A DNA stretch of 64,000 nucleotides from Natronococcus sp. AD-5 (GCF_030734285.1 NZ_CP132294.1:3658001-3722000); one strand, 5' to 3'; shown: positions 28,212 through 35,632, numbered from the stretch's first letter. Notes: generated by a model not told the origin, from the sequence alone. Program-made: numbers and translations.

Positions 28212-28865
28212 TTAGTTCCAGTCGACGCGATACTCGCAGCGGTGATCGCCGTCCGATCGACACTGATCGCCGACCTCCTCGACCGTTACGTAGCTGTCGG
28301 CGAACTTCTTCGCGACGCCCTTGATGAGTCCCTTGTCGAACTCGCACGGGTAGGGGTTCTCACAGATCATCACTCCCTCGTTCGGTCCCTCGTTCCGGAA
28401 CTCGTAGGACCCGATTTCGGTGCCGCGGTGGTTCTGGGTGTAGGCTTGATTGATCCCCTGTAACGCGTCCTCGACCTCGGAGAGCTCCGGCGGGAATTCG
28501 ACGTGCTCGGGGACGTTCTGGCCCATATTCCGCATCCTGACTTCGCCGTACTCATCGCGCATATCGTACAGCATGGCGAGCGGAATTTTGAGCGGGTACC
28601 ACTCGTCGGATTCGATGTCCTCGAGTCCGTATTCGGCGAGTTTGCTGGTGATCTGTTTGCCCACGAACGACGAGACCGATTCGCCTGCGGCGATGTACGA
28701 CTGCGGACTCCGACCGATCACTTTCGCGTCCTCGAGCGACCCCTCGAACCCGATTCGGTCGTGTACCGTTGGGAACTCATCACTGGATTGTGAGTTCCCG
28801 TTTGCAGAACCGACGAGTCGCTTAATCCAAGACGTGGTGATGAACACCGTATTGATTGTAGTCAT
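28212..28865 (-). CDS. V4R/HNOB-like small-molecule sensor protein (putative)
   Basis: A 217-residue protein with no confident family name. The C-terminal half ends GVAKKFADSYVTVEEVG followed by CRSDGDHRCEYRVDW, which resembles the Cys-rich end of V4R and HNOB-type sensor domains (G-x-C...G-x-x-x-C-x-F/Y). Cysteines at CENPYPC and CRSDGDHRC could bind metal. Around residue 50 is DAKVIGRSPQSYIAAGESVSSFVG. It lies convergent with the aldehyde dehydrogenase (12-nt gap), and its 5' DNA is AT-rich. A role in sensing a hydrophobic ligand or gas is speculative. Confidence 0.5.
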   Translation of the reverse strand: MTTINTVFITTSWIKRLVGSANGNSQSSDEFPTVHDRIGFEGSLEDAKVIGRSPQSYIAAGESVSSFVGKQITSKLAEYGLEDIESDEWYPLKIPLAMLYDMRDEYGEVRMRNMGQNVPEHVEFPPELSEVEDALQGINQAYTQNHRGTEIGSYEFRNEGPNEGVMICENPYPCEFDKGLIKGVAKKFADSYVTVEEVGDQCRSDGDHRCEYRVDWN

Positions 28866-30302: not shown

Positions 30303-32312
30303 CTAAATATCTTTCAGTCTAAGATCATCACTCCAATCAATTACTCCATCATGTAGAACTGGTATCGGACCTAAATCAAAGAACCTAATCAATTCTGGCT
30401 TTGTAACGGTAATAGGCCCAATCTTCTCAGATAAATAGTGGTACTTGTTTGAGTTTAAATCGGGTGTAATCATGGTTCCTTTCTCTACTTTACTATAAAA
30501 GTGTAGATCAATCTGAACAGTCCCGTCTTCATAGGTCTCATGCACAGAACAAACCCCAGGTAAGCCTGTTTTTGATTGGGCTATCGCTGTCGTTCCATCT
30601 CCGACGATATGATACTGTCCATCAGCAGTAGCCTTAGCTTGTACAATATCTAACACGGCAGAGAATGAATAGCCATAATTCAGTAAGCGAGCAACTGTAC
30701 TACCAACCCTTACTGCATATTTATTTTGAATATCGTCAAGAGTTACAATACCTCCAATGCTTCCAGCTTCAACGAGTTCTAAACCTTGCTCATATGAGTG
30801 GCAAGCATTAAGAAAGAACGCCTTTGTCTCAACAGCCTCAAGCAATGAGGCATCGAGTTTTCCATCCGAACACCGAAAACCTTTTTGGTCAATATGGCCG
30901 ATATAATGAACAAAATCGCTTTCTCGGGATAGGACTTTTTTGAGTTCAGTTGTTGTAAGATCGTGGTGTATTGTTATATTGAACGGCAATTCATCTCGGT
31001 CCCCATATGTACCATATATTGACACTAATTCTTCTCGCATATTCGATTCATTACAGATAATGTCAATCTCAAGTGGGTTATCTTTTGGTGTTTGATCAAT
31101 TTTATTATAAAATGCTGTTAATGGTATGGTACATAGAATTTCTGAACTGCTATCATACTTCCATGATTGTTGAATAGTTGCTGAGGATTCATTATTAATA
31201 TACTTATTATTACTTCCTTTCTTTATTTGAGAATCTATAGTTAAATACTCGTTTTCGTTCTCTCTTACAGTGATTAATGAAAGACCTTTGGCAAGAAACG
31301 GAAGAAATCCAATCATGTCTCTGCTTGATTCTATTGTTGCTTTAGGATACCAGTCAAAATAATATGAATCTACTAGAGAAAACGGTACTTCAAGATAGGA
31401 TTTAAGTTGTTTAGCTAATGATTGTTCATACACAGTTGCTATATCAAACTCAAGAAGTGAATCAATTGCTTGTCGTTCGTATAACGGTTCTGGTGATAGC
31501 CCTTCAGTTCGGACAATACAATCAAGAAAGAAGACGTGTTTCAGGAGACGCTCTATTGTTGATTCAAGCTCACCGTACTCATCCAAAGCATATGTGTATC
31601 CTGATTTAGTAGTGAGTTGTGGTTTCGAATTAGGGACTACTTCAGCACCCAAATAGTATGTAAGTGGTGTAACAGTATACACGTTGGCGAGCGTCGGGGG
31701 TATTTCAATTTTAATCCCTGTATTTGGTTGATCAATATTATTAGGGATATCTAACTCATCTCCAAGTTTAATGATCGGTGGATGTCCGCGGAGGGTCGGA
31801 TATGATCGTTCCGGCCGCATTGTTTTCAATGCTGAGCCAAAAGTAGAGACCGCGTTCATCAGGTCGGTTGGATTAGATGTCGTTTTGATAGTACTAACTG
31901 GGTAAGCGTGATAAGATCGCACACCGATAGCTACCTGAGTTGGTTCATCGATATCAATGTGGGATTGGCCTTTTTCCGTATAAATATTTACGCCGCCATT
32001 TATATGAATATATGTCTTCATTGATGAGGATATATCAAGAGTGTAAGATCCATCTGGTAAATGAACACTTCCGTTAGAACTGATAGACTCTATAATTGAA
32101 CCAGAGTCGTCTATTACATACATATATTCATTTTGTGGTAATATAAGTTCCCCTGTAGTGATTATGACAGAAGAGTCAACAGGATATGGAATCCTATTTC
32201 GCTTATCAGATCTAAGTTCAATTGATCCCGAAGTTCTAATCCGATATCGATGTCGTTCGATAGGATCAATGAGTTCCAGTCCATCTTCCTTTGCATCAAT
32301 TAATGGTTCCAT
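30303..32312 (-). CDS. CHAT-domain (caspase-fold) protein 1
   Basis: A 669-residue protein with a C-terminal CHAT domain, the caspase-like fold of cysteine peptidases. The candidate catalytic His is in HYIGHIDQKGF (His about 473) and the Cys in FFLNACHSYEQG (Cys about 504), the spacing and motif pattern of CHAT enzymes. Residues 1-150 form a beta-rich region (VHLPDGSYTLDIS); 200-390 are mixed and lack TPRs. After the Cys come about 165 residues including VGDGTTAIAQSKTGLPG. Codon use is AT-rich against the host. It is divergent from the exported-peptide gene. Substrate unknown; a peptidase role in defence or signalling is an inference from CHAT relatives. Confidence 0.8.
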   Translation of the reverse strand: MEPLIDAKEDGLELIDPIERHRYRIRTSGSIELRSDKRNRIPYPVDSSVIITTGELILPQNEYMYVIDDSGSIIESISSNGSVHLPDGSYTLDISSSMKTYIHINGGVNIYTEKGQSHIDIDEPTQVAIGVRSYHAYPVSTIKTTSNPTDLMNAVSTFGSALKTMRPERSYPTLRGHPPIIKLGDELDIPNNIDQPNTGIKIEIPPTLANVYTVTPLTYYLGAEVVPNSKPQLTTKSGYTYALDEYGELESTIERLLKHVFFLDCIVRTEGLSPEPLYERQAIDSLLEFDIATVYEQSLAKQLKSYLEVPFSLVDSYYFDWYPKATIESSRDMIGFLPFLAKGLSLITVRENENEYLTIDSQIKKGSNNKYINNESSATIQQSWKYDSSSEILCTIPLTAFYNKIDQTPKDNPLEIDIICNESNMREELVSIYGTYGDRDELPFNITIHHDLTTTELKKVLSRESDFVHYIGHIDQKGFRCSDGKLDASLLEAVETKAFFLNACHSYEQGLELVEAGSIGGIVTLDDIQNKYAVRVGSTVARLLNYGYSFSAVLDIVQAKATADGQYHIVGDGTTAIAQSKTGLPGVCSVHETYEDGTVQIDLHFYSKVEKGTMITPDLNSNKYHYLSEKIGPITVTKPELIRFFDLGPIPVLHDGVIDWSDDLRLKDI

Positions 32313-32654
32313 TTATTTATATTAATAATTTATATAAACACGGAAATATAGAACCATATAATTTACCCGCCACAACTGGATAAAAACACATCTCATATTG
32401 AACACAAATAGTTTTTCCTAACATCTTTTGATTCGTCTAGTATTTATCCCTTCTCAAGAAATTTTCGATTTAATAATTTGGTAAATATAATATGAAATGT
32501 CACATTCATAACAAGATCGAATTAGTATCACCTTGTGGCGACACATTCTAGTCAATTGATTTTTACACCCAAAATTTAGTATGGATCTATGTATCCTATC
32601 TAAGCTATATTAAAATAAACTTATTACGATCCGGAACCATAGTTCACGTGTATC
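32313..32654. other. AT-rich spacer between CHAT 1 and the peptide gene
   Basis: A 342-nt divergent spacer. A TTTATATAAA block near 32331-32338 is placed for CHAT 1, and CTTATTAC near 32618-32626 for the peptide gene. No gene or RNA structure was recognised in the middle. Confidence 0.5.
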
Positions 32655-32780
32655 ATGACCGACCTAACTCAGTACCTCAAGAAGCACCCACGAATGATCG
32701 GCGTTCTGTTCACGATTTTATTAGTGCTCTCGCAAGCAGGAACCGTAGCTGCAAATGGTAGTGCGCATGCTGGACCTTAA
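32655..32780 (+). CDS. Small exported peptide (DUF7503-like), 41 residues
   Basis: ATG 32655 opens a 41-residue frame: a short polar N-terminus (MTDLTQYLKKHPRM), one hydrophobic stretch IGVLFTILLVLSQAG, then TVAANGSAHAGP. The layout fits a signal peptide or a single membrane anchor; an AxA-like site (TVAA) would release a peptide of roughly 8 residues. From memory it resembles the haloarchaeal small-protein family called DUF7503, which I cannot verify here. It is GC-richer than the island around it, so it may have a separate origin. It is divergent from CHAT 1 and stops 10 nt before the end of CHAT 2. Confidence 0.7.
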   Translation: MTDLTQYLKKHPRMIGVLFTILLVLSQAGTVAANGSAHAGP

Positions 32781-32790
32781 ATTGCTATAG

Positions 32791-33207
32791 CTATATTTCG
32801 TTACTCCAGTAAACAGTTTCATCAATTACTACAGGGAATCTTCCCTCATTAAAAAATTCCTCAATGTGATCTTCTTTTACAGGTATCTGTTCAGTTCTTC
32901 CTGGAACTATGTAATACGAATCGATAGGATTCAAATGAGGGGTAAATAATGTTCCTTTCTCGGCTCTTACAGAATCATACATTTTAATTTCCGCTAATAC
33001 ATTCTCTTTTTCTTCCTTCATAATGCAAACATTTGGAACAACTGTTTCTGACTGAGCAATAGTTGTTCGGCCGTCGCCAACCATTAGATATTGTTGACTA
33101 ACAACACTCTCGTTTTGAGCGACATCTAAGGCCCCATAAAGTGGAAAACCTTGGTTTAGTAATTGAGCAATCGTGCTTCCAATTTTAATTGCTCCACTGT
33201 TTATCAC
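32791..33207 (-). CDS. CHAT-domain protein 2, C-terminal fragment
   Basis: A 138-residue frame homologous to the last 140 residues of CHAT 1 (INSGAIKIGSTIAQLLNQGF, VGDGRTTIAQSETVVP, KGTLFTPHLN). It begins with GTG inside the overlap GTGA with the stop of the upstream fragment. A single base deletion near 33204 would join the two into a full protein of about 685 residues. It may be translated by reinitiation, or it may be dead. Confidence 0.65.
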   Translation of the reverse strand: MINSGAIKIGSTIAQLLNQGFPLYGALDVAQNESVVSQQYLMVGDGRTTIAQSETVVPNVCIMKEEKENVLAEIKMYDSVRAEKGTLFTPHLNPIDSYYIVPGRTEQIPVKEDHIEEFFNEGRFPVVIDETVYWSNEI

Positions 33208-34847
33208 ATCCCAAGAGTTACAATTCCACCTATACTTCCAGCCTCAATTAAATGTAGACCTTGGTTGTGTGATTGACAGGCATTAAGCAAGAATGCTTTT
33301 ACGTTTGAGCTTTCAATTGTTGCTCCATCCAACTTCCCATCTGAACACTCAAATCCATCCTTATCAATGTGTCCGATATAGTGTAAAAAATCACACTCTG
33401 TCGCTAATATTCCCTCAAATTCAGCAGTCGTGATATTATGATGTGCTGTGACCTTAAACGGAAGCGTCTCCCGATCTCCGTAGATGCCATCGACTGATTC
33501 GAGCTCCTCATTCATGTCTGAATCATTGCAGATAACTTCGATTTCAATCGGGTCCTCTCGAGGATTTCGACCAATACTGTTTTGAAATGCAGAGAGAGGT
33601 GTTGTGCTGGCGATTTTTGAAGTGTTATCACCTTTCCAAAGTTGTTGGATCGATGGCGATACTGTCTCATTATTCTGCTCAGGGATAGAATCGTTACTTC
33701 GAATTGGATTTGTACTTCGAACGAAGTTGTTACGTGTGAATTCTGAAATTGCTTGTACTTTATCAGTATTTTCGTGTTGATTCGATCCCTTTTTAACATT
33801 CGTATTAACAGTTGCAAGGTAGTTAGAGATGAATGGGAGAAACTCAGCAATATCTGATTTTGGTTCAAGTTGTATCTCAAGTCGCCATTCTGGAAGATAA
33901 GGTTCTATTACGGAAAAAGGTACTTTGAGATACGCTTCAAGTTGTTCATTGAGTGTTTTTTCGTATATTGATTCTATATCGAATTCAAGAATTGATTTAA
34001 TCGTACTTCGTTCATGAAGTGGGAGTGGTGATATTCCTTCTGTCCGCACAACACAATCTAGGAAAAATATATGCTTGAGAATACGTTTAATAGTTGCCTC
34101 AAATCCTTTTTCTCCGTTAAGCATATGGCTGTATCCTGTGTTGGTTACCAGCCGAGGTTCTGAACCAGATGTAACTTCAGCCCCAAGATAGTAGACTAAT
34201 GGTGCAACAACGAACGTATGGCGAAGAGTTGGTGGGATTTCGATTCTAATACCTGTTTTTGGTTGCTTTAGACTGTCTGGGACCGAAAATACATCTCCTA
34301 TTTCAAGAGCAGGAGGATGTCCACGCAGTGTCGGATAAGATCGATCAGGTGACTTTGTTTTTAGCGCTGATCCAAACATCGAAATTGCCTGCATGATATC
34401 GGTTGGATCGGATGTAGTTGTGATCGTTCTTGCTGGGCGTGTATGATACGACCGGGCACCGAGAATCACTGGCGAAGGTTCTCCGAAGCCAATATGCGTT
34501 CGCTGAGGATCAGAATACACCTGAACAGAGTTATTGACTTGAGCGTATACTTTTAGCGGGCCGGATAGATCAAGAGTATAGTTTCCCTTTGGCAAGAACG
34601 TTTGCTGGTCAGGTTTCACCTCTACAATCATCGAACCATCTTTATCACGGATATAAACATAATGGTTCGTTGGTAATGTGATTTTGTCAGTCTCTATTTT
34701 GATTGCTGCATCGACTGGATACTGAATCCGATCACAGTCGACCGGCTCTGCTGAAACCGAATCATGGGTCGTGAGCCGATAGCGATGCCGCTCGATTCGA
34801 TCGATAATCTCCAGTCCGTCTTCCGTTGGCTCGAATATCGGTTTCAT
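33204..34847 (-). CDS. CHAT-domain protein 2, N-terminal and catalytic part
   Basis: A 547-residue paralogue of CHAT 1 with the same order: acidic start EDGLEIIDRIERHRYRL, beta-rich region, then the CHAT domain with HYIGHIDKDGFECSDG (His about 493) and FLLNACQSHNQG (Cys about 524). The frame ends 23 residues after the Cys with GGIVTLGM and a TGA. Relative to CHAT 1, one base is missing, so the C-terminal 140 residues fall in another frame. Both catalytic residues remain. It lies 86 nt after the KaiC-like gene on the same strand and could share its transcript. Confidence 0.75.
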   Translation of the reverse strand: MKPIFEPTEDGLEIIDRIERHRYRLTTHDSVSAEPVDCDRIQYPVDAAIKIETDKITLPTNHYVYIRDKDGSMIVEVKPDQQTFLPKGNYTLDLSGPLKVYAQVNNSVQVYSDPQRTHIGFGEPSPVILGARSYHTRPARTITTTSDPTDIMQAISMFGSALKTKSPDRSYPTLRGHPPALEIGDVFSVPDSLKQPKTGIRIEIPPTLRHTFVVAPLVYYLGAEVTSGSEPRLVTNTGYSHMLNGEKGFEATIKRILKHIFFLDCVVRTEGISPLPLHERSTIKSILEFDIESIYEKTLNEQLEAYLKVPFSVIEPYLPEWRLEIQLEPKSDIAEFLPFISNYLATVNTNVKKGSNQHENTDKVQAISEFTRNNFVRSTNPIRSNDSIPEQNNETVSPSIQQLWKGDNTSKIASTTPLSAFQNSIGRNPREDPIEIEVICNDSDMNEELESVDGIYGDRETLPFKVTAHHNITTAEFEGILATECDFLHYIGHIDKDGFECSDGKLDGATIESSNVKAFLLNACQSHNQGLHLIEAGSIGGIVTLGM

Positions 34848-34933
34848 CTGCTGAAAGAGGCAGTCAGTATCTCATCTCTGTGACTGTTCGACGACAGTCG
34901 TGAATCCTCATCAAACATACGAAGATAATTGCT

Positions 34934-35632
34934 TTATACTCGAGTTGTCGAAATCCATCCGGAACACAGCGTGCCATTCTTGAGCGTCCATCGCTCTTGA
35001 CGGACACCGTTTCGCTCCCGGAGCTCGACGATGACGTCGAACAGCGGCGCCAAAACCGAAACGATGTCCGCCTCTCGCTCGACTGGCAGGAGATAGTGAA
35101 TCATTCCGTCCGCATCCCTCGTTCGGCCGTTAGTGAGGTGAACAAACCGGAAAACCTGTTCTCGACTGTACTCCTCTAGCAGCGGGAGCAGCGAGTCGAC
35201 GCCGATTCGGAGTTCGGAGGGCTCGAGCCCGTCGGCGGCCGTATCGAAGGCTTCGATTGCGCTCGAGATGGCGACGCCGAGGTCGACGAGCGTCTCGGTT
35301 CTGGTCGGCGTCTCGGCGATCGGCAGTGTCGGGGACGATTCGCTCGCGGTGGCGCTGCGGGTCTGTACGTCGTGCGTGATGACACTGAGTCTATCCGCAG
35401 TTTGCTCGCTCACGACGTCGGAGATGGGACCCGTCTCTCCGGTCGTCGACACCAGAATTCGTCGACGCGGACGTTCGATAGCTTGGCCGAGAAGTCGTCG
35501 GCAGGTTTCCGTTTGCTGGCTGGCTCGAGTGGAACCGACCACGAGTACGCTCGCACCCTGGCGTTTCAACCGGGATAGTTCCTCGATAAACGCGTCGTCC
35601 GGCCCGTCTCGACGGTCGGTTTCCGAGAACAT
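34934..35632 (-). CDS. RecA/KaiC-like fold protein (DUF7504-like)
   Basis: A 232-residue cytosolic protein. The N-terminal VLVVGSTRASQQTETCRRLL looks like a Walker A strand and helix with the GxxxxGK[ST] loop lost, so ATP hydrolysis is doubtful. The C-terminal half has VFRFVHLTNGRTRDADGMIH, then LLPVEREADIVSVLAPLFDVIVELR and RQERWTL, a pattern of haloarchaeal KaiC-like proteins that I remember as DUF7504. A T-rich box near 35660 suggests a leaderless start at 35632. It precedes CHAT 2 on the same strand. GC is near host level, unlike the CHAT genes. Confidence 0.65.
   Translation of the reverse strand: MFSETDRRDGPDDAFIEELSRLKRQGASVLVVGSTRASQQTETCRRLLGQAIERPRRRILVSTTGETGPISDVVSEQTADRLSVITHDVQTRSATASESSPTLPIAETPTRTETLVDLGVAISSAIEAFDTAADGLEPSELRIGVDSLLPLLEEYSREQVFRFVHLTNGRTRDADGMIHYLLPVEREADIVSVLAPLFDVIVELRERNGVRQERWTLKNGTLCSGWISTTRV

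Follow-up and report, generated by a model that had tools for sequence, protein, structure and literature searches.

Among the described systems closest to the locus analyzed here are TPR-CHAT/Csx29 (Craspase) and the CHAT-gasdermin systems, in which a CHAT protease lies beside a cognate partner. Tandem copies of a short peptide within one precursor are familiar from the yeast alpha-factor precursor. In Rgg/SHP, PlcR-PapR, Rap-Phr and arbitrium AimR-AimP, a short, exported precursor whose C-terminal signal is short and variable is encoded beside its receptor, and the receptors are TPR regulators or phosphatases. Group III shp genes lie downstream of rgg and are convergent with it (PMC3679016), and the leaderless communication peptides of Firmicutes establish that signal peptides without an export leader exist (PMC10518010). 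Among haloarchaea, strong caspase-like activity has been reported without a known gene (PMC3615174), and the signal for disk formation in Haloferax volcanii is unidentified, the study in question favoring a small molecule over a large peptide (PMC12240190). In our literature searches, neither DUF7503 nor DUF7504 nor a CHAT system of haloarchaea was the subject of any paper, and no description of a haloarchaeal peptide signal was found. Here we analyze a haloarchaeal block of CHAT, DUF7503 and DUF7504 genes; in our leading, tentatively held reading, it is one case of a two-gene module in which the peptide tail would be the unit recognized, DUF7504 would be optional, and a released signal would be the most likely function.

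Results

The window, a stretch of 64,000 nucleotides from Natronococcus sp. AD-5 (NZ_CP132294.1:3658001-3722000), contains the block at positions 30303 to 35632, flanked by rpsG and DUF5781/fusA. A reading made from the sequence alone (the sequence-only reading) had described two CHAT paralogues with a small peptide gene between them and a KaiC-like gene upstream. Our analysis reproduced all of these coordinates, with both CHAT-like genes read from the minus strand and the intervening 41-codon ORF from the plus strand, and the His/Cys positions of the two CHATs (473/504 and 493/524) exactly. The features are as follows.

30303..32312, minus strand: CHAT1, predicted caspase-fold cysteine protease of 669 aa, frame intact (ORF and model)
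30894-30896 and 30801-30803, minus strand: CHAT1 dyad codons, His473 and Cys504, respectively
32313..32654: AT-rich intergenic region (28% GC) from which CHAT1 and the peptide gene diverge, putative promoter region
32655..32780, plus strand: DUF7503 peptide gene, 41 aa, with YL..HPR motif, TM/signal segment, V-x-A site and 8-residue tail
32754..32777, plus strand: predicted mature tail NGSAHAGP with the conserved Gly-Pro end, following a V-A-A site (putative cleavage, -3/-1 rule)
32791..33207, minus strand: CHAT2 C-terminal part of 138 codons, shifted in frame by the loss of one base from a G run
33204..34847, minus strand: CHAT2 N-terminal part, 547 codons, convergent with the peptide gene
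33369-33371 and 33276-33278, minus strand: CHAT2 dyad codons, His493 and Cys524, respectively, in the N-terminal part
34934..35632, minus strand: DUF7504, 232 aa, predicted KaiC-CI-like fold lacking a P-loop; next gene upstream of CHAT2, same strand

The CHAT2 and peptide-gene stops are separated by 10 bp. The CHAT2 frame breaks at the G run 33204-33212, just past the catalytic Cys524, and because relatives read through this point, one base of the run is missing here; this may be a real mutation or an assembly error. The intact His/Cys pairs of the sequence-only reading thus stand for both CHATs, and CHAT1 is intact throughout, but the CHAT2 frame is split by a frameshift that this reading had missed. 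Only CHAT2 lies tail-to-tail with the peptide gene, and CHAT1 falls in a duplicate clade of family f1 without a peptide of its own (FastTree of 149 CHATs). The unit is one CHAT and one peptide, instead of the two CHATs around a peptide that had been proposed. As separate observations, the GC content of both CHAT genes (30303-34847) is 38-41% against 64% for the window, despite a position that is conserved in the family, the corresponding drop being much smaller for CHATs of other families; and a minus-strand gene at 28212-28865 encodes a protein of 217 residues that resembles V4R weakly at its C-terminal end (E 4e-6, under the cut-off).

The structure of the CHAT protein was predicted with AlphaFold from an alignment of 49 relatives (pLDDT 86.8, pTM 0.88). 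In a Foldseek comparison with the PDB, its C-terminal domain matched SAVED-CHAT (8tl0, E 1.8e-6), gingipain RgpB (3e-5) and separase (1.4e-4), with the Csx29 and Craspase entries lower in the same list, so that the model and the fold comparison bear out the sequence-only assignment of the C-terminus to the CHAT/caspase fold class. The window CHATs did not reach the gathering cut-off of the Pfam CHAT family (PF12770), which matched two distant paralogues at only E 0.02-0.07, and a PDB sequence search with the CHAT alignment returned chance matches only. The dyad (His473 and Cys504, in that order) is kept in 144 of 149 relatives. Since the placement rests on fold and dyad, we describe this as a divergent CHAT-class protein that lies outside the Pfam family as modelled. 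On the predicted structure, the CHAT proteins belong to the CHAT/caspase class (clan CD), with a predicted protease activity. No convincing structural relative and no TPR pattern was found for the N-terminal 350 residues, which in the model are beta-rich (residues 1-145) and then alpha/beta; a Pfam TPR hit is absent. The dyad-less proteins of the family (L055, L163, L168, L196 and L157) come from about three lineages, and two of them, L055 and L163, adjoin what appears by eye to be the 3' end of purA.

Co-inheritance across haloarchaea had been named as the key test of the module. A pattern scan of genome contigs with CHAT1 gave no relatives, and a separate genome search then gave many. In a set with one genome per species, mutually related so that counts are not independent events, 268 of the 293 genomes of the order carried CHAT1 relatives and 249 carried DUF7503, which was absent from all 25 CHAT-less genomes. 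When loci were picked by CHAT, DUF7503 was found in 56 of 61; when 40 loci were picked by DUF7503 alone, a CHAT was convergent and adjacent in all 39 that were readable, the fortieth being cut by a contig end. All fetched loci together contained 100 convergent and adjacent DUF7503-CHAT pairs with gaps of -17 to 423 bp (97 within 133 bp), and the only exceptions were one co-directional case (L073) and two ORFs where the contig is truncated. CHATs with a peptide come from 96 genomes in 44 genera and 10 families, at a median gap of 4 bp, and throughout the window's family the module keeps a single position, between rpsG and DUF5781/fusA. The key test therefore came out in favor of the module, with a recurrent, near-universal convergent adjacency of peptide and CHAT across haloarchaea, and we consider it very probable that the two are a cognate pair.

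The window's peptide is a member of DUF7503 (PF24335; E 1e-21, 76.5 bits against a gathering threshold of 27). The consensus of 98 distinct sequences reads YL..[HN]P[RKQ]M.G[VA]LFT, followed by a hydrophobic segment, Q[AT]G, an A/V-x-A/G site and the tail. At this putative cleavage site the -3/-1 rule is satisfied in 97 of 97 sequences; the tails are 7-10 residues long, 90 are distinct, 87 of 97 are uncharged and 13 of 97 lack the Gly-Pro. Among 14 species at the rpsG-fusA locus, identity is 79% for the body (pN/pS 0.23) and 27% for the tail minus its last two residues (pN/pS 0.66, near saturation), and Gly-Pro is retained in 12. A fixed body and a fixed end with a fast-changing tail that is constant within a precursor is what would be expected from species-specific recognition, and these patterns suggest that the C-terminal tail is probably the functional unit. 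A short variable C-terminal peptide behind an export-like segment is also the layout of pheromone precursors; it is present in the DUF7503 forms and not in the soluble and repeat forms described below, and the conservation of the DUF7503 body exceeds what an export signal alone would need.

The conservation of the body bears on two other readings. A near-invariant P[RK] lies just N-terminal of the TM segment, the residue after the P being R, K or Q in 98 of 98 sequences, and separase and gingipain, the Foldseek neighbors of the CHAT domain, are Arg/Lys-specific. CHAT might cut the membrane peptide, for example after [HN]P[RK], to yield a membrane-active fragment, as with bacterial gasdermins and Csx30; the occurrence of the peptide only beside dyad-intact CHATs would agree with such a substrate or effector. 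However, a pore-forming body should be the conserved part, and the TM segment is swapped or missing in some partners while the Gly-Pro tail persists, which makes this reading unlikely. Alternatively, the conserved cytosolic YL..[HN]P[RK] and TM body of DUF7503 could serve as a membrane tether for CHAT, or as an export sentinel whose tail, if left in the cytosol, reports failed export. Since the soluble and repeat forms would be capable of neither, we regard both roles as quite improbable.

To define what the partner peptides share, we made a blind count of convergent ORFs of at most 140 residues that end in Gly-Pro within 110 bp of a gene. Of 149 CHATs, 103 had such an ORF; the count was 1 for the 527 control genes, and 1 for the 149 CHATs when the other strand was read. 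CHATs not typed as having a standard DUF7503 had one at 21 of 52 (p 3e-23), some of these 21 being slightly diverged DUF7503. In two species of one lineage (G199 and G260), DUF7503 is replaced by precursors with 13 and 7 tandem tail copies, respectively; the repeat unit has 13 residues, xTADGNSGGISGP or MTADGNGSGISGP, with ISGP at the stop, and the nearest CHAT relatives of these species have DUF7503 with single tails such as GNNVGISGP. Within the 13-copy gene the residue is constant at 12 of 13 codon positions, and synonymous variation occurs at 11 of these 12; because the variation between copies is almost only synonymous, each copy is under selection as protein. This finding also bears on whether the small ORF is a mere by-product of constraint at the CHAT 3' end, such as a terminator or antisense RNA, with no translated peptide. 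Tight convergent placement, with stops that overlap at times, would agree with a by-product, but the synonymous-only repeat variation, the core pN/pS of 0.23 and the presence of a Pfam family in 249 genomes all reflect constraint at the protein level, and the by-product reading is highly improbable.

A second deep CHAT clade has soluble peptides that end in AKRVSTYGGP or similar, as well as TM peptides of unrelated kinds with TGP or PGP at the end; ten CHATs of this clade gave no peptide. Neither a signal nor a TM segment is present in the soluble and repeat forms. From these unrelated convergent peptides and the blind count, the common feature of the partners is the C-terminal Gly-Pro and not the export segment, and export is not general. 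The exported 41-residue peptide of the sequence-only reading is therefore present, with export predicted, but the export segment is not common to all CHAT-family partners. Several members of the second clade (L177, L180-L183 and others) lie just upstream of a tbsP-like gene in six families, with Pfam run on one; tbsP is a regulator of glucose metabolism and cell development. One genome (G251) has about a dozen CHAT matches, and the four loci examined there (L206, L214, L221 and L225) have differing convergent TM peptides, three of them Gly-Pro-ended. Distant CHAT relatives occur in four genomes of another family of the phylum (f25; L157-L160), and a Gly-Pro peptide was not found with these.

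On the tree of 149 CHATs, the peptide type changes 18 times, versus 60 in shuffles, and thus follows phylogeny. A peptide accompanies 120 of the 144 dyad-intact CHATs (24 have no recognizable one) and none of the 5 that lack the dyad (p 2e-4, a value inflated by related genomes). That the CHATs which lost the dyad have no peptide suggests a tie between peptide and proteolytic function, with the same inflation applying to such numbers. This dependence on an intact dyad would also agree with an inhibitor or antitoxin, in which the tail sits in the CHAT active site as a pseudosubstrate, like securin with separase, and multiple copies raise the dose. Such a role accommodates the soluble and multi-copy forms, and weak correlated changes at positions 478 and 503, beside His473/Cys504, occur in the clade with GP-less tails; these changes are suggestive and represent few independent events. 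Nonetheless, DUF7503 is predicted to be N-in by the positive-inside rule, which would place the tail outside the cell; the convergent, non-operonic order is unusual for an antitoxin; and peptide-less CHAT copies persist (the window's CHAT1 and eight relatives). We therefore consider an inhibitor, too, to be unlikely.

The gene upstream of CHAT2 is a member of DUF7504 (PF24336; E 1e-54, 185.7 bits against a gathering threshold of 27). Its model matches KaiC CI (E 6e-10, TM about 0.55) and the Walker A position is unconserved in an alignment of the family, in agreement with the P-loop-degenerate RecA-like gene described earlier. In a clustering of neighbors, DUF7504 was the sole strongly recurrent neighbor of the pair across families. 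However, a role as essential sensor, as had been suggested, is less supported, since the gene immediately upstream of CHAT is DUF7504 in only 51 of 115 cases, and the family is large, reaching 18 copies in a genome, and also occurs in CHAT-less genomes. From these distributions, we regard DUF7504 as an optional accessory with a KaiC-like fold.

An immune or cell-death role, as in the known CHAT systems, received no direct support: there was no PADLOC match beyond chance, viral relatives were not found, and the genes are widespread and, in the window's family, hold a fixed chromosomal position. As the sequence-only reading had stated, no gasdermin gene and no cas gene (cas7-11) was found among the genes scanned around the locus, and an NCBIfam search gave nothing useful. 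CHAT relatives were absent from phage records and from IMG/VR, and a viral or mobile-defence reading is for that reason not favored.

Discussion

These observations provide a basis for a model of the module in which the peptide acts as a signal. CHAT would be a cytosolic caspase-fold cysteine protease, and its cognate short peptide would be encoded convergently, usually a few bases from the CHAT stop. The tail, normally Gly-Pro-ended, would be recognized by the CHAT protein. We predict that the DUF7503 form is exported via its signal-like segment and cut at the conserved A/V-x-A site, and that the x-GP peptide of 7-10 residues so released may act as a signal; taken up again, or before export, the tail would bind the adjacent CHAT and switch its proteolysis.

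The idea that the peptide is a CHAT substrate or signal fits well. That the tail works as a released signal we put somewhat short of an even chance. This reading is ranked first because of the layout, which resembles that of exported pheromone precursors of bacteria, the convergence of group III shp and rgg, and the tandem and leaderless signals that exist elsewhere. Against it, neither the soluble forms nor the TM body, with its strong conservation, fits a simple export-signal model, and GP-less tails and peptide-less, dyad-intact CHATs occur. A further step, which we regard as possible and rather doubtful, is that these genes form a new archaeal class of peptide communication, in which a caspase-fold protease would be controlled directly by short Gly-Pro-ended peptides, whether these come from single- or multi-copy precursors, and the species- and paralogue-specific tails would make private channels.

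What emerges is a family of caspase-fold proteins that is widespread, has no name and comes with its own peptide partner, perhaps an unrecognized peptide-controlled protease system that carries a chemical signal between cells; if the signal reading is true, this would be a new kind of system. No link to the caspase-like activity reported from haloarchaea is implied. H. volcanii carries both DUF7503 and DUF7504, so the idea is open to experiment in a standard laboratory strain.

Compared with the described systems, the module shares with TPR-CHAT/Csx29 (Craspase) and CHAT-gasdermin the arrangement of a CHAT protease beside a cognate partner, with the same catalytic fold. It differs in that the haloarchaeal CHAT is without TPR, as judged by model secondary structure and Pfam, and in that its partner is a short Gly-Pro-ended peptide, sometimes soluble or multi-copy. 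SAVED-CHAT (8tl0) is the best structural match of the protease domain; in contrast to that system, only about 200 residues align, and a SAVED family hit and a CRISPR gene in the cluster are absent. Separase-securin and the gingipains (clan CD) share the fold class of the catalytic domain, whereas the N-terminal region differs and there is no sequence similarity to any solved structure. Rgg/SHP, PlcR-PapR, Rap-Phr and AimR-AimP resemble the DUF7503 forms of the module in the layout of the precursor and its place beside the partner gene, and group III shp also in its convergence with rgg; their receptors differ in kind, the haloarchaeal CHAT being a predicted protease and its signalling putative. 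The tandem copies recall yeast alpha-factor, although no signal peptide is visible in the repeat genes of haloarchaea, and the Firmicutes leaderless peptides are unrelated to the haloarchaeal module in receptor and sequence. The protease fold is thus known, and our literature searches gave no example of it paired with a C-terminal Gly-Pro peptide; the module is a variant of the CHAT protease modules.
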